Shown: piece after piece, positions 32,970 through 41,976 of the stretch | How the letters are laid out: every line of letters starts with the position of its first letter | How positions within the stretch are numbered: the first letter of the stretch is position 1 | Assembly (NCBI RefSeq): GCF_001753165.1 | Contig: NZ_CP017448.1 | Span: forward strand, 1,568,462-1,632,461 | Direction of reading: 5' to 3' | DNA length: 64,000 bases | Source: Acidihalobacter aeolianus | GTDB taxonomy: Bacteria > Pseudomonadota > Gammaproteobacteria > DSM-5130 > Acidihalobacteraceae | Notes under the pieces: generated by a model | Told to the model about the DNA's origin: nothing | Databases searched by the model: none | The model's input: only the letters and a program-made list of their open reading frames with translations | Program-made: the position numbers and the translations under genes

Positions 32970-33161
32970 GCTTCCCCCTGCGCAACGGATTGCAGACCAT
33001 TCATGTCTCGATAAGCCAAGATTAGCATAATGCCGAAGACTCTATAATCTCCCGCGTACCGCATGCAGCCACCCAGCCCAGCAGAAAAATCAAGTTGCTG
33101 AATTATAATTATATTTATGGGCAGAATACGCTAGCAATCAGCAAGAAAGGAGGGTTGGTGG
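32970..33161. other. Intergenic stretch up to the attL junction
   Basis: This A/T-rich region holds no ORF I can support. It contains a TATAAT (about 33041) without a clear -35 partner. It is the chromosomal sequence that lay downstream of tRNA-Ala before the element inserted. Confidence 0.5.
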
Positions 33162-33199
33162 GCGGAGGAGGATCGAACTCCCGACCTTCGCATTGCGAA
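33162..33199. repeat. attL: 38-bp copy of the tRNA-Ala 3' half
   Basis: Identical over 38 bp to 41908-41945. The sequence beyond it towards the CCA end reads TTGGTGG then GCGG, one base shorter than the intact gene (TTGGTGGAGCGG). This fragment is therefore the displaced original 3' end and could not pair fully with the acceptor stem. Confidence 0.9.
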
Positions 33200-33295: not shown

Positions 33296-34372
33296 ATGGC
33301 TACCATCAACCAGCTACCCAGCGGCAAATGGCAGGCGAAAATCCGCCGCGATGGCGTAGCCTCATCCAAAACGTTTATGGGGCGGGCAGACGCCGAAGCG
33401 TGGGCCAGACGGCAAGAATCCGAGATTGAGCGCGGAATCTGGCGGGACAACACCGAAGCCGAGCGCACGACCTTGGCCGAGGCCCTAGAACGCTACGAGC
33501 ACGAAGTATCCGCCTCCAAGAGGGGGAAGGTGCAGGAGTCGTCCGTTATCGGCCTGCTGCTCGATTCAAGGCTCGCAAAGCTGACCCTCGCCCGCATCCG
33601 CTCGGCGGACGTGTCCGCACTGGTCGATGATTGGCGGGCCGTCGGATACGCGCCTGCCACGATCACCCGCCGCATCGCGATCTTGTCGCATGTGTTCCAA
33701 ACGGCAGCGCGGTCGTGGGGTATGGAATCACTCAGCAACCCGGTCAAGCTGGTCAAGCTTCCACCATTGCGGAACGCCCGTGAGCGACGCGTGACAGACG
33801 CCGAGATTGAGGCGATCTGCGAGGCCACGCGTTCGCCTGTGCTGCCGTACATGATCAGGCTTGCCGTCGAGACGGCCATGCGCCGGGGCGAGATTGTGGC
33901 GATACGATGGAGCGATGTACACCTTGCACGTCGCGTGCTGCATATCCCGCAAACGAAGAACGGCTATCCGCGCGACGTGCCGTTATCGAGCCGCGCCTTG
34001 GCCGTGCTTGAAGAATTGAAGGCCGAGCGCGACGAGAAGCGCCGCCATCGCGTCGTGCCGATCGGGAAAGGTAAGGCCGAAGACGACCGGCTGTTCTCGG
34101 TCCGCAATGATGTGGTCACGCAGGCGTTCGAGAGGGCCGTAGTACGCGCCAGATCAATCTATGAGGCCAAGTGCGAGGAAGAGGGGCTTAGGATCGACGC
34201 AGGGCACCTTGTCGGCCTGCGCTTCCACGATCTGAGGCACGAGGCAACCAGTCGGCTTGCTGGGCCGTTGAGCGTGCATGAGCTGGCGAAGGTGACGGGG
34301 CACCGTGACCTGCGCATGTTGATGCGCTACTACCATCCGTCAGCGGAGGATTTGGCGGCTAAGCTGGGGTAG
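33296..34372 (+). CDS. int: Tyrosine-recombinase integrase
   Basis: 358-aa site-specific recombinase expected to integrate and excise the element at tRNA-Ala. An N-terminal arm-binding region (MATINQLPSGKWQAKIRRDG) and a SAM-like core-binding domain (about 60-145) precede the catalytic domain. That domain carries Arg196 (TAMRRGE), Lys221, His311-x-x-Arg314 (HDLRH), His336 (TGHRD) and nucleophile Tyr345 (RYYH). All catalytic residues are present. It starts 97 bp from attL and reads into the element. Confidence 0.95.
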   Translation: MATINQLPSGKWQAKIRRDGVASSKTFMGRADAEAWARRQESEIERGIWRDNTEAERTTLAEALERYEHEVSASKRGKVQESSVIGLLLDSRLAKLTLARIRSADVSALVDDWRAVGYAPATITRRIAILSHVFQTAARSWGMESLSNPVKLVKLPPLRNARERRVTDAEIEAICEATRSPVLPYMIRLAVETAMRRGEIVAIRWSDVHLARRVLHIPQTKNGYPRDVPLSSRALAVLEELKAERDEKRRHRVVPIGKGKAEDDRLFSVRNDVVTQAFERAVVRARSIYEAKCEEEGLRIDAGHLVGLRFHDLRHEATSRLAGPLSVHELAKVTGHRDLRMLMRYYHPSAEDLAAKLG

Positions 34373-34634
34373 ATTTGTGACGGGGTAGAGTTATGACGCA
34401 TCTCTATGTTAGGCAGGAGACGGCCAATCCCGGTCGCTCGTAGACTTCAGCAAGCAGTCGTTTGAATGACTAGTTCCTGCGGGAAAGCAGAAACCAGCCC
34501 TACATGTTTATTATGTGTTGTACTTAGAAAGGTATAAAAGCAAGCGCTATCATGCGCAAATAGTCCCTGCGGGTTACCTGCACGCGAGATTTTTGAAGAA
34601 ACCCTTCTTTTCGTTAATTTCAGTGGAGGCGTCG
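34373..34634. other. Intergenic leader before the nuclease-ATPase gene
   Basis: This 262-bp A/T-rich stretch contains TATAAA at about 34536 but no strong promoter pair. An in-frame upstream extension of the next gene begins at 34515 but has no protein-like features and no ribosome site. Confidence 0.4.
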
Positions 34635-37049
34635 ATGGATGTGGACAAGGCGAAGGAGGTTTTTGATTCACTTATAGGGGAGTGGAGTGCAAACGAAGGA
34701 GCCATCTCAACCGAGCAGGACACTAGGTTTCAGATTATCGACCGAATGTTGACAGATGTTCTAGGGTGGAGTCGCGAGAAAATCAATACCGAACCGCATG
34801 TTGAATCCGGGTATGTTGATTACCTCGTCAATGCCAGTGGAAAACCAAAGCTGGTCGTAGAAGCTAAGCGCGCAGAAACTCCACTCTTAAACACCAAACA
34901 AGAGAATTATCGAAGCTACAAGCTTGGAGGTCCGGCGCTTCAATCAGCTGTTGATGGCGTTAAGCAGGCACAGCGGTACTGTCTCGATGTCGCGGTCCCA
35001 TTTGCAGTCCTCACAACTGGCTTTCAGTGGATCGGCTTCTGGGCTTTGCGAACTGATGGCGTGAGGCCAAAAGACGGCCAAGCTTTTGCTTTCCCAACAT
35101 TGCAGAGCATAAGTAAAAATTTCTCTGAGTTCTATGACCTTTTTTCGCGCGAAGGAGTTTTAAATGGGTTGTTTCGCGCATATATACAGCAAGCGGAAGG
35201 CCTCTCGATAACTCAATCTGATCCCCTGTATCGGGTGCTTGAGAATAAAGATATCCGGCTCCTAAGTAAATCGCGCATGGCTGCTGACTTAGATACTGTG
35301 TTTCGAAGTTTCTTCGGAACTATGTCGGGTGACAATGACCCCGAGATGTTGGCGAAGTGTTTTGTGGAGTCGAAGGAGAGCCGTGAGGCAGACATTAGTC
35401 TTCAGAAAATTGCAAGAAATCTTATTAGCAGAATTGATGTGGTCGAAAGTGCTGAAGCCAAAGAGTTGCAGGAGCATGTGCGTACGGCGGTCGATAGCCA
35501 AAAAGGGGAGTTCGTTTTGGTGATCGGCAATAAGGGGGCAGGAAAATCAACTTTCATAGACCGATTCTTCCGAATGGTTCTTGATAAGCGTCTTCGAGAC
35601 CAATGTATTGTTATCCGAATCGATGTCGCGGATTCAGATGGAGTCCTTGATGGGATTGCTGACTGGCTTGTCAGTCGTATGATCCATGAAGTTGAACAGT
35701 CCCTTTTTCAAGGCAGATCGCCTCGCTATGAAGAGCTACAAGGCATATTCTTCAGCGATTACGATCGATGGCGAAACGGTGAGCACAAACCCCTGTATGA
35801 GCGAGATAAAGCAAAGTTCAAAGAGAAGTTTGGTGACCACATAGCGAGCTTAGTCGCTAGCAAACCCCGCGTATATTTAGCTCGAATTCTTCAAGATGCG
35901 GTACGTTCAAGGAAGTTGATGCCATGTCTTATTTTCGATAATACGGATCATTTTCCTCAGCCATTTCAAGAGGCAGTGTTCCAGTTCGCGCAGTCTATTC
36001 ATAGAGAGGTTCTTTCATTCGTTGTTTGCCCAATCACAGATCGGACGATCTGGCAACTTTCGAAGCATGGGCCAATGCAATCTTATGAGACAACATCCTT
36101 TTACCTTCCGGTCCCATCGACAAAGGAGGTTCTTAAGAAAAGAGTCGACTTTCTTAAGGATAAATTGGAAGCAGAAGAGAAGGAGCGGAAGGACTACTTC
36201 TTAACAAAGGGAATTCGGCTGCGCCTAGAAGACCTACATGCATTCGCTGTGTGTATTGACGAATTATTTGTCCAATCGGAATACGTATCTCGTACAATTG
36301 GATGGCTGTCGAATCACGACATACGCCGTGGTCTAAATATGGCGCAAAGGGTAATTACTAGTCCGATTGTTAGTATGGAAGAGTTGGTAAAGACCTATCT
36401 GTCGAATGGGAGATTAACGATACCTCGCCTTAAGATAAGGCAAGCCTTGATATTCGGCGAACATAGCCAATACCAAGAGGATGCTAACGATTACATCGTT
36501 AATGTATTTTCTATTTACCCTGAGAGTGTCACAACGCCGCTGCTGCGACTGTCTGTGTTGCGAATGTTGTTTGACATACATAATCAGGCGTCGGATGCTG
36601 AGAACACATATATCTCGGTCGAGAGCATTCAGGACTATTTCGAAACGTGCGGAATCCCGCGAATCGCAACGGCCAAGCATCTGTCAAAGCTTCTCAGTTA
36701 TAGGTTGGTGGAGTCATATGATCCAACAGACCAGGAGATATATGAGAGTCAGCGACTGCGTATAACGCACTCTGGACAGATTCATCAGGAATTTTCTCTA
36801 CGAGATCATGTGTATATGTCAAGCATGGCCATGACCACAGGTGTTCGAAGTGTTCAGTGCATCGAGGAAATACGAGAAATCAATTCACGGAAAATGACAA
36901 AGGAAGACTGGAAGAGCGTCGAAAAAAAGTTCGCGAGTTATCTGCTTAGGGAAGACATGGCATTGGCAACAATACCCAATTTGGAGAACTACGCAGGCCA
37001 GCATGCTTTGAGAAGCGAGCTTGGTGGGGCCTGGGGTGCGTCGAGCTAG
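34635..37049 (+). CDS. HsdR-N-like PD-(D/E)XK nuclease fused to P-loop ATPase (putative defence protein)
   Basis: 804-aa cytosolic protein. The first 180 residues resemble the type I restriction HsdR N-terminal nuclease: LTDVLGW, then YVDYLVNASGKPKLVVEAKR, in which Asp62, Glu76 and Lys78 make a PD-(D/E)XK site. A P-loop domain follows, with Walker A GNKGAGKS at 298-305 and Walker B LIFDNTD at about 432-438. The C-terminal 350 residues are mostly helical without a named domain. No SF2 helicase motor and no HsdM or HsdS gene is present. Start ATG at 34635 has GTGGAGG 5 bp upstream. The gene is A/T-richer than its neighbours and monocistronic, typical of anti-phage cargo. Substrate and trigger are unknown. 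Confidence 0.8.
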   Translation: MDVDKAKEVFDSLIGEWSANEGAISTEQDTRFQIIDRMLTDVLGWSREKINTEPHVESGYVDYLVNASGKPKLVVEAKRAETPLLNTKQENYRSYKLGGPALQSAVDGVKQAQRYCLDVAVPFAVLTTGFQWIGFWALRTDGVRPKDGQAFAFPTLQSISKNFSEFYDLFSREGVLNGLFRAYIQQAEGLSITQSDPLYRVLENKDIRLLSKSRMAADLDTVFRSFFGTMSGDNDPEMLAKCFVESKESREADISLQKIARNLISRIDVVESAEAKELQEHVRTAVDSQKGEFVLVIGNKGAGKSTFIDRFFRMVLDKRLRDQCIVIRIDVADSDGVLDGIADWLVSRMIHEVEQSLFQGRSPRYEELQGIFFSDYDRWRNGEHKPLYERDKAKFKEKFGDHIASLVASKPRVYLARILQDAVRSRKLMPCLIFDNTDHFPQPFQEAVFQFAQSIHREVLSFVVCPITDRTIWQLSKHGPMQSYETTSFYLPVPSTKEVLKKRVDFLKDKLEAEEKERKDYFLTKGIRLRLEDLHAFAVCIDELFVQSEYVSRTIGWLSNHDIRRGLNMAQRVITSPIVSMEELVKTYLSNGRLTIPRLKIRQALIFGEHSQYQEDANDYIVNVFSIYPESVTTPLLRLSVLRMLFDIHNQASDAENTYISVESIQDYFETCGIPRIATAKHLSKLLSYRLVESYDPTDQEIYESQRLRITHSGQIHQEFSLRDHVYMSSMAMTTGVRSVQCIEEIREINSRKMTKEDWKSVEKKFASYLLREDMALATIPNLENYAGQHALRSELGGAWGASS

Positions 37050-37197
37050 AGGTAGGCGGTAGTGAATCACCACTTGTTCGTTAGACGCTATTCAGCCACT
37101 GTTGACTGCTTCACTCAGGTAGCTGCCGGAGAACCCACGCCGCCTTGAAGGGCCGCTGTGGGTCGATTTGAGACGAAGCAAAAGGTGGGCGATTGGC

Positions 37198-37479
37198 TCA
37201 AGCCGCATCCTTCACCCTTAGCTCGACATGCATCCCGGCAGCCGCCGCCATGTTTACCAGCGCATCAAGGCCAAACAGATTGATCTTGCCGCGCATCAGA
37301 TCGGACACACGGGGCTGTGTCACGCCAAATAGCTTGGCAGCCTGCGCCTGACTGAGCCCGACGGCCTCAATATGCTTTTTCAGCGCCATCATGAGCGCCG
37401 AGCGCAGCTTCATGTTCTCGGCGGCCTCGGGCGTGTCCTCGATGGCGTCCCACACGTTCGCATATCGTTTGTTGCTCAT
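37198..37479 (-). CDS. higA: Xre-family antitoxin, HigA-like
   Basis: 93-aa DNA-binding protein with a central helix-turn-helix (LSQAQAAKLFGVTQPRVSDLMRGKINLFGLDALVNMAAAAG). This is typical of antitoxins of the HigB/RelE-type modules in which the toxin gene comes first. It overlaps the toxin gene by 4 bp and is predicted to neutralise it and repress the shared promoter. Symbol by analogy only. Confidence 0.85.
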   Translation of the reverse strand: MSNKRYANVWDAIEDTPEAAENMKLRSALMMALKKHIEAVGLSQAQAAKLFGVTQPRVSDLMRGKINLFGLDALVNMAAAAGMHVELRVKDAA

Positions 37480-37814
37480 CGTCCTAGCTCCTTCAACAAA
37501 TCCCGGTAGCGCTGCCCAGCTAACTCCAAGTCACTCTTGGCCGTCTTCTGCGTCTTCTTCTGGAAGCAGTGCAGGACGTAGACGGCATCGGCCAACTTGG
37601 CGACGTAGATCACTCGGAACGCGCCTGTGGCATCGCGGACACGGATTTCCCGAACACCCTTCCCAACTGCCGGCATAGGTTTCCAGTCGTCGGGGTCACG
37701 CCCGTTCTGCACTTGGTCGATTTGATGGCCGGCCTCTCGGCGGGCGTCTGACGGGAAAGCACGCAGATCGTCCAACGCGCTACCCCTGAACTCGATTGTC
37801 TTCGGTGCCTTCAC
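37476..37814 (-). CDS. higB: RelE/HigB-type toxin (Gp49-like)
   Basis: 112-aa predicted ribosome-dependent mRNA interferase of the phage-derived Gp49-like/HigB family. Marker blocks are IEFRGSALDDLRAFPSDARREAGHQIDQVQNG, VGKGVREIRVRDATGAFRVIYVA and VYVLHCFQKKTQKT. I place the start at GTG 37814 because an excellent -10 box (TATAAT) lies at 37821-37826. The longer frame from TTG 37829 would start upstream of the transcription start. The mRNA may therefore be leaderless. It precedes its antitoxin gene with a 4-bp overlap. Confidence 0.82.
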   Translation of the reverse strand: MKAPKTIEFRGSALDDLRAFPSDARREAGHQIDQVQNGRDPDDWKPMPAVGKGVREIRVRDATGAFRVIYVAKLADAVYVLHCFQKKTQKTAKSDLELAGQRYRDLLKELGR

Positions 37815-37820
37815 AAACCG

Positions 37821-37848
37821 ATTATACAAAATCTTGTATGGCCCGCAA
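37821..37848 (-). promoter_or_regulatory. Toxin-antitoxin promoter and palindromic operator
   Basis: On the minus strand TTGCGG (37843-37848) and TATAAT (37821-37826) are 16 bp apart. The inverted repeat ATACAA-N4-TTGTAT at 37824-37839 overlaps the -10 box, so antitoxin binding would block RNA polymerase. The +1 falls at about the toxin GTG. Confidence 0.65.
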
Positions 37849-38091
37849 GCTGAGTGAAGCAGGCGGCCCGGAGGGCGGCTTCGGAGACGCGCAGCGGCGA
37901 CGGGCGAGACCCGAAGGGGCGAGTTGGCCGAGCGGAGCGAGGTTTTGGCGGCGGAGCCGACACCAAGGCATCCGGAGGATGCGTTGGTGTGTCTCTTAGA
38001 ATCGACGTAGGAGATTCGGAAATTTCTATACGTTCACTGAAAGTGAACGGAGTTCTTGTTGAGTGTTGCCTGAATACTTGTTAAATAATTG

Positions 38092-38164
38092 TTGACATCG
38101 GAAAAAGTGTTTGTTGTGATGATGTTGAAATAGTACCGATTGAATACCGAATGAGTACCTAATC
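38092..38164 (+). promoter_or_regulatory. Promoter with three tandem 11-bp repeats
   Basis: TTGACA at 38092-38097 and TGTGAT at 38115-38120 are 17 bp apart. Immediately downstream are three consecutive 11-bp units: AGTACCGATTG (38132), AATACCGAATG (38143) and AGTACCTAATC (38154). One-helical-turn spacing suggests cooperative binding of a repressor on one face of the DNA. Confidence 0.5.
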
Positions 38165-38205
38165 AAGGCTGTTTCGTTGTTGATCTGAGCCACCGGAGGT
38201 GTTTT

Positions 38206-38466
38206 ATGGAACCGAAGAACAAAACTGTCCGCGTTGCCGCTCGATTGGACGCAATTAACGATGCCCGCCGCCAAGGGCTGACGTGGGGCGAGATCGCTGA
38301 GCAGGGTTCTTGGGCGTGGGGAAATATGAGCCCCGCGTCTCTGCAAACGACAATAGGTCGGGCTCGGCGAGCGGTCGCAAAAGGGCTGTACGCCCCGCCA
38401 CCACGACCACTAATCGACCCACGACTTGGCGACGCGACGCCGCCACCTGACGGTCGTCTTAACTGA
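38206..38466 (+). CDS. Small HTH-like element protein A (86 aa)
   Basis: Basic protein of unknown function. The N-terminal 40 residues (MEPKNKTVRVAARLDAINDA then GLTWGEIAEQ) look like a helix-turn-helix and are clearly related to the next protein. A second helix GRARRAVAKGL is followed by a short Pro-rich tail. GGAGGT lies 6 bp before the ATG. It may bind DNA, for instance the 11-bp repeats upstream. The layout recalls TraK/MobC-type accessory mobilisation proteins, but I cannot confirm that. Confidence 0.6.
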   Translation: MEPKNKTVRVAARLDAINDARRQGLTWGEIAEQGSWAWGNMSPASLQTTIGRARRAVAKGLYAPPPRPLIDPRLGDATPPPDGRLN

Positions 38467-38477
38467 GGGGTACGACC

Positions 38478-38972
38478 ATGGAGCCCAAGGCCAAGACTGC
38501 AAAACTAGCGGCTTATCTTGACGCCATCGACGGCGCTCGACGTATCGGCTGCACGTGGGGCCAGATTGCCGATGCGCTTGCCCCGGTGGTCGAGTGTGGC
38601 GATGGTGATCCTGAGCGCCTGCGCCGTCTGGTGGTCAACGCCCGCAAGGCGGTTGAGAAGGGGCGCTTGGCACCCGTGCAGCGCCCGCTCCCCGGCGAGC
38701 AGCAGACAGCGGCTACGTCTGGCCGGGTCGTTCCTGCGGCTCCTGCGGCCACGCAGGGCCGCCCAGCACCCGCCGCCCCGCAGGCCCGGCCTGCGGCGAC
38801 ACCGGCCCCGGTCAAACAGACGAAGTTCGAGGGCAGCGTGCCGCCGAGCTGGCGGGAGGACTACAAACCGCCGACGATCAGGTCGAACACCCCACGGGTG
38901 GTCAAGACGCTTACCAGCGGCCAGCGGATGACTGAGCCCCCGCCTCCGCCTGACCTCGATGACGACGACTAA
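38478..38972 (+). CDS. Small HTH-like element protein B (164 aa), paralogue of A
   Basis: Shares the N-terminal pattern MEPKxKTxxxAAxLDAIxxARRxGxTWGxIA with its upstream neighbour, so the two arose by duplication. After the helix VVNARKAVEKG comes a long Ala/Pro-rich linker (about residues 75-115). A conserved-looking C-terminal end with PSWREDYKPPTIRSNTPRVV and an acidic DLDDDD tail follows. Such a folded head, linker and tail design suits a protein that tethers partners. GAGGGG precedes the ATG. An intrinsic terminator begins at its stop codon. Confidence 0.6.
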   Translation: MEPKAKTAKLAAYLDAIDGARRIGCTWGQIADALAPVVECGDGDPERLRRLVVNARKAVEKGRLAPVQRPLPGEQQTAATSGRVVPAAPAATQGRPAPAAPQARPAATPAPVKQTKFEGSVPPSWREDYKPPTIRSNTPRVVKTLTSGQRMTEPPPPPDLDDDD

Positions 38973-39000
38973 AAAAAGGCCCGGATAGACCGGGCCTTTT
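38971..39000. terminator. Bidirectional intrinsic terminator
   Basis: A7 followed by GGCCCGG, loop ATAGA, CCGGGCC and TTTT. The stem (with flanking A-T pairs) works on both strands, ending the small-protein operon on the plus strand and any leftward transcription on the minus strand. Confidence 0.85.
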
Positions 39001-39371: not shown

Positions 39372-39385
39372 AAGAACCTATAGGA

Positions 39386-39466
39386 CTGCGGAAGTGCTAC
39401 ACGCCACTGCGGAACTGCTACACGCTCTGCGGATTTGCTACACGCCACTGCGGAACTGCTACACGC
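39386..39466. repeat. Four iterons of a plasmid-type origin (oriV)
   Basis: Four copies of CTGCGGANNTGCTACACGC start at 39386, 39407, 39427 and 39448, i.e. every 20-21 bp (two helical turns). They directly adjoin and partly overlap the 3' end of the RepC-like gene. Iteron length and number are as in IncQ-family origins. They are the likely binding sites of the RepC-like protein. Confidence 0.85.
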
Positions 39467-40271
39467 TCGCCTCGTGATTCATGCTCAGGCTGCCTGTTTG
39501 GATGCGCTTCCTTTCTTCTCGCCTGTAGCAAATGATCCGGTCGCCGCAGATTACTATCCCGATTGCTGCGAGGTTGTCGGCATCGGCGCGTAGCTCTCGG
39601 CGGCGATTCCTAGCCTCCTGCTGCGCGAGAGGCCCACAGACCTGTTCAAGCACTTTATCCAGCCGGAATCCGCCTGTGGGCTGCTTGGTGGGGCTGTGAG
39701 TCAGCATGAGTCGCGCTACGCTCTGTGAGATGCCGCGCCTCATTTTTGCGATGGGACTTGGATCACGCCACAGTCCCATGTCATGGCGCAGTAGGTGGAC
39801 AGCAGCCTTACCGATCTCGATGCGCAATAGGTGCCGTTCGCCGCCCATCGGGTTGGGCTTTGTGACGTAGCTACCATCTTGTCGCGCTGCTAGGCCGATG
39901 TGGTCGATCAAGTGACCGATGCAGCGTAGGTGCTCCGGTTCTTTTATCTCAATCAGGGCCGTTGTCAGTTCGTCCAGCATCGTTTTAAGCCCCGTCCCAT
40001 CCTGCCTCGTCAGCCTACGCACTTTTGCAGGGTCAACAAGGAGCTTGATCCGCTCGCCACCGTCCTCGTCGAGCAGCGGGCCGTAATCCTCGGCACTGTA
40101 GAACAGCGCTTCAAAGACGTCTGCGTGTGCCTGCCCTAATCTTCCGACGATTCGCACTAGACCCCATGGGGTCGTGATTTCCCGCTGGATGTATATTGGC
40201 CTGCGAGTAGGCTGAAACATCCCGAGTCGGGCTTGGTGTGCCGTTGCGGTGGGCAAACGATCACCAGTCAT
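39459..40271 (-). CDS. RepC-like replication initiator (iteron-binding)
   Basis: 270-aa protein expected to bind the adjacent iterons and open the origin. It is soluble with winged-helix-like segments. The C-terminal region LLRIEIGKAAVHLLRHDMGLWRD...SQSVARLMLTHSP...RNRRRELRADADNLAAIGIVI follows the layout of IncQ RepC (a family of about 280 aa). I recognise the position and pattern more than exact identity. I take ATG 40271, which overlaps the end of repA by 11 bp; a longer frame to 40430 would lie entirely inside repA. Last gene of the HTH-repA-repC operon. Confidence 0.7.
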   Translation of the reverse strand: MTGDRLPTATAHQARLGMFQPTRRPIYIQREITTPWGLVRIVGRLGQAHADVFEALFYSAEDYGPLLDEDGGERIKLLVDPAKVRRLTRQDGTGLKTMLDELTTALIEIKEPEHLRCIGHLIDHIGLAARQDGSYVTKPNPMGGERHLLRIEIGKAAVHLLRHDMGLWRDPSPIAKMRRGISQSVARLMLTHSPTKQPTGGFRLDKVLEQVCGPLAQQEARNRRRELRADADNLAAIGIVICGDRIICYRREERKRIQTGSLSMNHEASV

Positions 40272-41235
40272 GGCGACGCCCTCCGCTTGCTGCGGCGTAC
40301 TGCTGCGCCGTGTCTGCCTTCTGGTCGCCTTCGGTAGGGAATAACTCGACAGGCACCAGCACCCCGCCCTCGGCCCTTCTGTACCAACGGGGCTCGGTCG
40401 GCTCCCCGTAATTTTGCTTCGAGGTTCCAAAGCGGACGTACCTATGCCGATCTTCCTCCGGGATCGGCTTGGGGTTCTGGGCAGGCCAAGTTGTGAGTTT
40501 CTGCGCTTCCTCCGCCGTCATGCGCGCCACGTAAGACACCATGCGCGGGTTGTCGCTTAACACGGTCGCGCCGCGTCCTGCGTGTTGATGATCCACCATG
40601 CCGTTCATCGAAACTTGCTTGGGCGTGTGATGTAGGAACAGACATGCAGGTCCACCGTCAGCGGCGATCCACTCAAGCCCTGACACGACCGCGCTCATGT
40701 CGCCGTTGGAGTTCTCATCGCCTGTGTGAACGCGATTGAGCGTGTCGAAGACAATCAGTCGGCTGTCTTCGTATTCCTCCTTGATGAACCGTAGGCAGTC
40801 ATCGTCGAGCAGGTTCCAGCGCTTGCCGACGATGGGTACAAGGGTCAGGTTTTCGGAGATGACTTCCCTTGCCGCTGGCTCAAGCCATTCGCGCATAGCA
40901 TGCAGTCGATGCCGGAGTATCGCCCTGTCGTCCTCAGCAGCGATGTACGTGACCTTGCCGGTGTGTTTGGGCTTGAGTTCCAGCACGTCGCCGCCGGCCA
41001 CCGAAGCGGCCACTGAGAACGCGGCCTCCATTGTCCAAATGCTCTTGCCCGTGGAGCCGGGTGCTACCAGTGACCCCACAGAGGATGCAAGGAATCCCGG
41101 CCATATCCAGTCGAGCGGATCGGGTTCATTCTCGAACGCATCAAGTATGTCCAGCGGTTCGACGCTGTACTTGATCCTGCGCTTCTCGCGGTCCGTTGGC
41201 TTGTTGCTGGCCTTGAGGTTTGTGAAGCCGTCCAT
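40261..41235 (-). CDS. repA: IncQ-type RepA replicative helicase
   Basis: 324-aa RecA-fold ATPase closely patterned on the hexameric 5'-3' helicase RepA of RSF1010. The Walker A is PGSTGKS (Gly60-Ser65). ATYIAAEDD-type motif 1a is TYIAAEDDRAILRHRLHAM, Walker B is SRLIVFDTLNR, and LFLHHTPK plus the C-terminal VRFGTSKQNYGEP...RWYRRAEGGVLVP block are also present. RSF1010 RepA has matching VSPGGAGKS, HRLHAL, FLHHASK and VRFGVSKANYGAP. An N-terminal extension of about 25 residues is extra. The ATG at 41235 overlaps the TGA of the HTH gene by one base. Confidence 0.9.
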   Translation of the reverse strand: MDGFTNLKASNKPTDREKRRIKYSVEPLDILDAFENEPDPLDWIWPGFLASSVGSLVAPGSTGKSIWTMEAAFSVAASVAGGDVLELKPKHTGKVTYIAAEDDRAILRHRLHAMREWLEPAAREVISENLTLVPIVGKRWNLLDDDCLRFIKEEYEDSRLIVFDTLNRVHTGDENSNGDMSAVVSGLEWIAADGGPACLFLHHTPKQVSMNGMVDHQHAGRGATVLSDNPRMVSYVARMTAEEAQKLTTWPAQNPKPIPEEDRHRYVRFGTSKQNYGEPTEPRWYRRAEGGVLVPVELFPTEGDQKADTAQQYAAASGGRRHDW

Positions 41236-41441
41236 CACGCACCGCCTACGCGGAAGGCGTCGTTATCGAGTGCCTGCACGAATGCGGCCCAGTCCGCAGA
41301 TCGGACCATCATCCGTCCGTTTATTTGGTGAACCGGCACAGGGAATTTCCCCGCGTGAGCACGCTTATATGCAGTCGGTCGCGGCATCGAGAGCGCTTTG
41401 TACGCTTGTGCAAAAGGCATAAGCAGCTTGTCAGTGTTCAT
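41235..41441 (-). CDS. Small HTH regulator or excisionase-like protein heading the rep operon
   Basis: 68-aa winged-helix/AlpA-like protein: LLMPFAQAYKALSMPRPTAYKRAHAGKFPVPVHQINGRMMVRSADWAAFVQAL. The Pro-rich turn and the R-S-A-D-W end are typical of AlpA/MerR-type DNA binders. In IncQ plasmids a small repressor (repF) occupies this place upstream of repA and represses the operon; in integrative elements AlpA-like proteins act as excisionases. Either role, or both, is possible. GGGA stands about 9 bp before the ATG. Confidence 0.75.
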   Translation of the reverse strand: MNTDKLLMPFAQAYKALSMPRPTAYKRAHAGKFPVPVHQINGRMMVRSADWAAFVQALDNDAFRVGGA

Positions 41442-41511
41442 GTTCTTAGTCCCGCTAGGTTGATCTCTCCCTTGGCGTATTTGTCTCACGGTAAATCGGT
41501 ATCGTCAAACC

Positions 41512-41541
41512 TCTATAGTTAGTAAAAACATGTGCTTGCAA
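41512..41541 (-). promoter_or_regulatory. Predicted rep-operon promoter
   Basis: On the minus strand TTGCAA (41536-41541) and TATAGA (41512-41517) are 18 bp apart. The -35 lies inside the imperfect palindrome TGTG-CTTGCAA-CACA (41531-41545), a possible operator for the HTH protein. Confidence 0.45.
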
Positions 41542-41743
41542 CACATTCAGTCAATAGTTTCTAGGTGTTAGTTTCCTTGTCTGGCAAGGAAGTTTGTGTG
41601 CGGACGGGTGACAGAAACATGGCTGACGTGAGGCAGCGATTAGCCGACAAGTGGTTGCGAGCACACCTGTGCGGTGGCGGTTCGGCGCGGGTAGCGTTAG
41701 GGGGTAAACGCTAAGGTCAGGTCGCCCACACCGGATCGGCCTC

Positions 41744-41849: not shown

Positions 41850-41900
41850 CTCTGAAGGGTGGTCATTTCATTGCAACTTATTGTTTTTACTAGGAGAATT

Positions 41901-41976
<76 letters not shown>

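Follow-up and report, generated by a model that had tools for sequence, protein, structure and literature searches.

A solitary gene joining an HSDR_N-type nuclease to an ORC/STAND-like ATPase, a candidate single-protein anti-phage system, occupies an exchangeable cargo slot of an integrative element

The 64,000-nucleotide stretch of Acidihalobacter aeolianus DNA analyzed here (the window) carries, at 34635-37049 on the forward strand, a gene whose translation is an 804-aa protein without internal stops. We infer a defence activity, with a trigger and a target, and consider it probable that the gene encodes a conditionally activated single-protein nuclease directed against phages or other mobile elements. 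Its architecture is that of a nuclease followed by an ATPase and a winged helix, with conserved active sites; the gene is solitary and mobile, it sits in an exchangeable cargo slot, and its relatives are found in prophage hotspots and beside defence genes. The gene and its domains are as follows.

34635..37049, + strand: cargo gene for HSDR_N nuclease, ORC/STAND-like AAA+ ATPase and winged helix (translation; Shine-Dalgarno sequence; alignment of 54)
34635..35189, + strand: predicted PD-(D/E)XK nuclease domain, HSDR_N type, residues 1-185 (invariant residues; model; Pfam in relatives)
34818..34868, + strand: predicted catalytic D62 and E76-A-K78 (100% conserved in the 54-sequence alignment and in a distant subfamily)
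35430..36404, + strand: AAA+ ATPase domain with lid, residues about 266-590 (Pfam AAA_22; Foldseek)
35526..35552, + strand: Walker A GNKGAGKST, residues 298-306 (invariant G298, G301, G303, K304, T306)
35928..35948, + strand: Walker B LIFDNTD, residues 432-438 (invariant D435, N436, D438)
36537..36770, + strand: predicted winged helix-turn-helix, residues about 635-712 (helix-helix-helix-wing in the model; long ORC/Cdc6 Foldseek alignments consistent)

The ATG at 34635 is preceded at a distance of 5 nt by a Shine-Dalgarno-like GGAGG (34625-34629), and the starts of relatives align with it; on these two grounds, a longer GTG-initiated reading frame from 34515 was rejected. Scans for promoters and terminators gave no signal exceeding that of shuffled sequences. 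The GC content of the gene is 46.3% versus 58.5% in the remainder of the element, and its GC3 is 0.48 versus 0.76 in the adjoining integrase, in keeping with an initial annotation of this DNA, which had described a base composition unlike that of the neighbors. The coordinates that it gave, together with Asp62, Glu76-x-Lys78, Walker A and the Walker B motif LIFDNTD, are all borne out by the translation.

By predicted fold and by motifs, the N-terminal domain is a PD-(D/E)XK nuclease of the HSDR_N type, and HSDR_N domains cut DNA. Within this domain, E53, D62, E76, K78, Q111 and Y115 are invariant in the 54-sequence alignment, and the motifs E53, G59-x-x-D62-Y63, E76-A-K78 and Q111-x-x-x-Y115 form the known RecB/HsdR-type set. 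The predicted model of residues 1-185 (pLDDT 96) finds an HsdR fragment (3h1t, E 3.7e-4) as its top PDB match, followed by BpuSI, a type IIG enzyme, then Cas4 and the restriction enzyme DrdV, while the same HsdR is the sole PDB sequence-profile match of the domain (E 0.084). The Pfam HSDR_N model is sub-threshold on the window protein itself (16.6 versus a cut-off of 25.1 bits) and is exceeded by relatives (28.8 and 40.3 bits).

In the full-length predicted model (pLDDT 85), the nuclease is followed by an ATPase that, on model and sequence evidence, belongs to the ORC/Cdc6-STAND clade. ORC/Cdc6 proteins are the top Foldseek matches (E 1e-6, probability 1.00), with CED-4/APAF-1 also matching; the target-normalized TM-scores of 0.36-0.44 place the ORC/Cdc6 likeness at the level of domains and not of the whole protein. 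A profile of the family matches ORC4 (E 4e-4), Pfam AAA_22 is just exceeded by the window protein (27.6 bits versus a cut-off of 27), and the AAA+ fold, Walker A and B motifs, lid and winged helix-turn-helix of the ORC/Cdc6 clade are present. The initial annotation had left about 350 C-terminal residues without a known domain, a description that gives way, by model and Foldseek, to the lid of the AAA+ domain, then a winged helix, then a helical tail. ORC-like AAA+ proteins are related both to replication initiators and to NLR-type STAND proteins, and STAND/ORC-type ATPases switch through ATP-dependent assembly.

The gene lies within an 8.7-kb element whose ends are marked by direct repeats identical over 38 bp (33162-33199 and 41908-41945); the right-hand copy is inside tRNA-Ala(CGC) (41901-41976, - strand). 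From left to right, the element contains the following.

33156..33199: attL, a partial tRNA-Ala copy (direct repeat; 98% match to the tRNA-Ala of two sister genomes)
33296..34372, + strand: tyrosine integrase (Pfam Phage_integrase, E 2.7e-23)
34388..37170: cargo slot, occupied by other DNA in a sister element (DNA identity to L101 breaks after 34387 and resumes at 37171)
37198..37479, - strand: HigA-like antitoxin, element backbone (Pfam HTH_37, E 7e-24; 97% identical in the sister element)
37476..37829, - strand: HigB-like (Gp49) toxin, element backbone (Pfam Gp49, E 1.6e-29; 96% identical in the sister element)
38206..38972, + strand: a pair of small paralogous proteins, element backbone (identity to the sister element 100% and 83%)
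39385..39466: four tandem iterons of about 20 bp, beside the putative replication initiator
39459..40334, - strand: putative replication initiator, RepC-like by position (no Pfam match; iterons adjacent)
40261..41238, - strand: RepA-like AAA_25 helicase (Pfam AAA_25, E 4e-32)
41235..41489, - strand: AlpA-like excisionase/regulator (weak HTH_17; 98.8% identical in the sister element)
41900..41945: attR, inside tRNA-Ala(CGC) (direct repeat)

With its iterons next to the putative initiator and the AAA_25 helicase, the element carries a plasmid-like module for replication. A methylase, a specificity subunit and an SF2 motor are all missing from the element proteins scanned, in agreement with what had been noted from the sequence. 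In two other genomes of the genus, the tRNA-Ala and its right flank are kept and the left flank is not syntenic. At the same tRNA-Ala(CGC), one genome of the genus (G002) carries a different island, which encodes a type IIG restriction-modification enzyme (L080, G002:C1:418000-430500), and the site is thus an integration hotspot. Separately, we observe imperfect 18-bp inverted repeats (89%) at window positions 37106-37123 and 37845-37862 flanking the HigBA-type pair, which may be a mobile cassette of its own.

The clearest view of the gene as cargo comes from a sister element with 47-bp att repeats at tRNA-Val(CAC) of G002 (L101 2282-9711, on contig C1). The two elements share 93% DNA identity over 37171-38999 and 90% over 41232-41673 of the window, and the AlpA-like (98.8%), small (100% and 83%) and HigBA-type (96-97%) proteins are well conserved, with the helicase having diverged to 29% identity. 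Between the integrase and the equivalent of position 37171, the sister element encodes, instead of the nuclease-ATPase protein, a trypsin-like protein of 291 aa (Trypsin_2) with a match to PADLOC PDC-S45, a candidate defence family (E 2e-16). With the same backbone and a different gene in the slot, the nuclease-ATPase gene occupies an exchangeable cargo slot, and this exact swap substantiates the earlier proposal that it is element cargo. The HigBA-type pair was considered as a partner and rejected, as it is backbone that the sister element retains when the cargo changes. The statement that the gene sits alone behind the integrase therefore needs qualifying: it is a stand-alone gene, although the HigBA-type pair follows it (37198-37829) as part of the backbone. 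In elements with related integrases, a trypsin-like gene (L106 9938-10750) and a gene for a 296-aa protein (L102 9678-10568) lie near or adjoin the integrase, hinting at a general integrase-proximal cargo slot.

Relatives of the window protein were found at 58 loci in GTDB species genomes, at six in IMG/VR, several of which are prophages, and in 29 plasmid records, while a tblastn search of the INPHARED phage collection with the window protein gave no match. A 396-aa uncultured Caudovirales protein named as an HSDR_N protein (BFVD A0A6J5NY69) matches the model across 360 columns and is possibly a phage-borne short relative. Across 54 sequences, only 45/804 positions are invariant, and these include every one of the ten core residues predicted to act in catalysis or nucleotide binding, namely D62, E76, K78, Q111, Y115, G298, G303, K304, D435 and D438 (hypergeometric P about 1e-13). 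Nearly all of the same residues are kept in a second subfamily from Enterobacteriaceae, Shewanella and others (20-24% identity), in which 25 positions are invariant among 11 sequences and Q111 is conserved in at least 90%. The family is under purifying selection (dN/dS of 0.05-0.12 in five pairs).

The C-terminus is the part of the protein in which the family varies in architecture. A cold-shock domain is recognizable there in 19/54 sequences (about 35%), with two copies in some members; the window protein is of the short form, and four changes are required on the tree to account for the long form. In a member on a Desulfocapsa plasmid (L084 8034-10718), an S1 domain stands where other members have cold-shock domains, and this is an independent recruitment of an OB fold. 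The family is thus broad and transferable, with at least three C-terminal versions. In the protein tree, the window protein clusters with sequences from Cyanobacteria, Acidobacteria, Chlorobi, Burkholderia and Pseudomonas, a mixed-phyla grouping that indicates wide horizontal transfer, and the distribution is patchy, with the family present in 1/369 genomes of the class to which the window organism belongs. Some copies are disrupted, by ISAba1 in Acinetobacter (L085 8001-11592), by IS1 in E. coli H7 (hit H60) and by a broken ORF in Stutzerimonas (L064 10001-12427), which suggests a cost of carriage.

Across 71 loci, no neighboring gene recurs beside family members, which upholds the description of a stand-alone gene, and the commonest neighbor is a tyrosine integrase (12/71 loci). 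One relative lies between the portal gene gpQ and the replication gene gpA of a P2-like prophage (L068), the locus described by Rousset et al. as a P2 anti-phage hotspot (PMC9122126), and at L070, also a P2-like prophage, the relative is flanked by gpS and gpV. A second-subfamily member in a Klebsiella prophage remnant directly follows terminase and capsid-packaging genes, a placement that resembles the gpQ-gpA slot, although no gpA was found in this remnant. All of the E. coli loci inspected (5/5) are inside lambdoid prophages of the Rac-like or Qin-like type; WP_040091717.1 and WP_001349602.1 are two relatives from E. coli prophages. Neighbors of relatives include a complete Olokun pair (OloAB), type I and type II restriction-modification systems, cytosine methylases, TIR plus LmuB-like proteins, PDC-S06 and IetA-like ATPases, all of which are individual examples rather than a controlled measure of enrichment; some of the PADLOC matches (IetA, PDC-S01) fall on generic ATPases. 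A PADLOC scan of 138 neighbors returned mostly redundant methylase models and had no control, and it was kept out as an enrichment test. The neighborhood survey, which the initial annotation had suggested, thus places relatives in prophage defence hotspots and, by way of such uncontrolled examples, beside defence genes.

An uninfected cell must hold in check any nuclease that lacks a cognate methylase, and with no methylase present, modification cannot protect the host. In the mechanism we propose, the ATPase would hold the N-terminal HSDR_N nuclease inactive in the resting state, and a sign of infection would be detected by the C-terminal module, whether a winged helix or, in other members, tandem cold-shock or S1 domains. 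The ORC/Cdc6-STAND-type AAA+ domain, judging from its fold, would then bind ATP and multimerize, probably around or on nucleic acid. Such a multimer could bring the nuclease domains together to cut the DNA of the invader or of the cell, and the cutting would either destroy the invader or abort the infection. The predicted architecture fits an ATPase that acts as the switch, with the C-terminal winged-helix and OB-fold modules as the sensor, better than one in which the ATPase itself senses infection. We think it possible, if on balance doubtful, that this is an undescribed family of one-protein immune switches in which the ORC-like AAA+ assembles on invader nucleic acid read by the exchangeable C-terminal modules and thereby licenses the HsdR-type nuclease, so that restriction would need neither modification nor a phage protein as the trigger.

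Other readings of the same architecture have to be weighed. The protein might be a stand-alone type IV-like restriction enzyme, in which modified or foreign DNA would be recognized directly by the C-terminal winged-helix or OB modules, with cleavage powered by ATP hydrolysis in the manner of McrBC and no infection-triggered switch involved. We judge this unlikely, although it would accommodate an HSDR_N nuclease without a methylase and a winged helix that, by model and Foldseek, is of a DNA-binding type, and one relative is annotated as "Predicted type IV restriction endonuclease". The modified-base readers YTH, ASCH and SRA, however, are absent from all Pfam scans, single-stranded nucleic acid is the usual ligand of cold-shock and S1 modules, and the ATPase is ORC/STAND-like in Foldseek rather than McrB-like.

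Cargo of a mobile element need not serve defence, and the resemblance of the ORC/Cdc6 fold to replication initiators, along with homes on plasmids and integrative elements, raises the alternative of a maintenance or competition factor that acts in replication initiation, incompatibility or the exclusion of rival elements. Yet the element already has iterons and Rep genes, the sister element has the same backbone without this gene, and the carriers of relatives are unrelated (lambdoid and P2-like prophages, plasmids and chromosomes), which makes such a role improbable. We regard it as very improbable indeed that the gene is a chance acquisition of a host ATPase-nuclease for DNA repair or another housekeeping task: nuclease-AAA+ fusions are generally known to occur in repair too, but the patchy distribution within the class, the mobile contexts, the atypical GC content and the three disrupted copies argue against a housekeeping function. 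If the preferred reading of a conditionally activated defence nuclease is confirmed, an unnamed and widespread single-gene defence family would be gained across several phyla, in which a type I restriction nuclease is coupled to an ORC/NLR-like switch, showing that restriction is possible without self-methylation. The exchangeable OB-fold C-termini would offer a testable case for direct nucleic-acid sensing by such switches, and the members in E. coli prophages open the family to tests in standard laboratory strains.

When compared to known families, no full-length match to the window protein was observed in Pfam, NCBIfam or PADLOC, and PADLOC-DB (2023) likewise contains no matching family, in line with the initial annotation, which could not match the protein to a named system. 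We found no paper that names the family or cites the accessions of its E. coli, Klebsiella or Acinetobacter relatives; a recent name may exist, given that newer DefenseFinder models and DefensePredictor sequences lie outside this comparison. The P-loop ATPase Sll1717 family (NF047389) was rejected, as the window protein scores 16.1 bits in the P-loop region only, versus a required 75, and PADLOC PDC-M54B was rejected for matching residues 22-94 only (E 1e-4) and not the full length. The window protein shares with type I HsdR (Pfam PF04313/PF13588; PDB 3h1t) the nuclease fold and the E..GxxDY..ExK..QxxxY motifs. Unlike HsdR, it has no SF2 helicase domain in Pfam and no HsdM or HsdS partner among the element proteins scanned, and it pairs its nuclease with an ORC/STAND-like ATPase instead.

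Avs proteins are a further case of a nuclease joined to a STAND ATPase in immunity. The likeness of the AVAST (Avs) or STAND-nuclease systems to the window family is that of one protein with an N-terminal nuclease, a central P-loop ATPase of the STAND/ORC superclade and a putative C-terminal sensor. However, the Avs nuclease is of the Mrr or DUF4297 type, whereas the window family has HSDR_N in proteins of about 800-990 aa, and the TPR sensor of Avs contrasts with a winged helix plus optional OB folds; in the model, a winged helix-turn-helix and helical tail take the place of TPR-like repeats. No nSTAND Pfam model exceeds its cut-off on the window protein, and no Avs match was obtained in PADLOC.

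That immune proteins couple nucleases to STAND or ORC/Cdc6 ATPases is a familiar theme (PMC10853773, PMC12839542). The BrxC, BrxD, SspC and Orc/CDC6-REase neighborhoods described in the same two studies share an ORC/Cdc6-clade AAA+ followed by a winged helix-turn-helix and linked to nucleases, but they are multigene systems that include HerA, PglZ or modification genes, or have other REases, whereas the window family combines all parts, the HSDR_N nuclease included, in a single polypeptide. Type IV CoCoNuT systems (PMC11090510) similarly combine a nuclease and an NTPase with cold-shock OB folds; unlike the window family, they are multigene and use a McrB-type GTPase, a McrC nuclease and coiled coils, and neither McrB nor McrC models match the window protein in Pfam and PADLOC scans. 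GiPD474, like the gene described here, is a single gene for a P-loop ATPase, in its case prophage-encoded and conferring phage resistance, but it was rejected as a family member because its ATPase is of the ParA/AAA_31 type and no HSDR_N domain is reported for it (PMC12724215). What sets the family apart from these systems is its HSDR_N nuclease, together with a single-gene form and exchangeable OB-fold C-termini.
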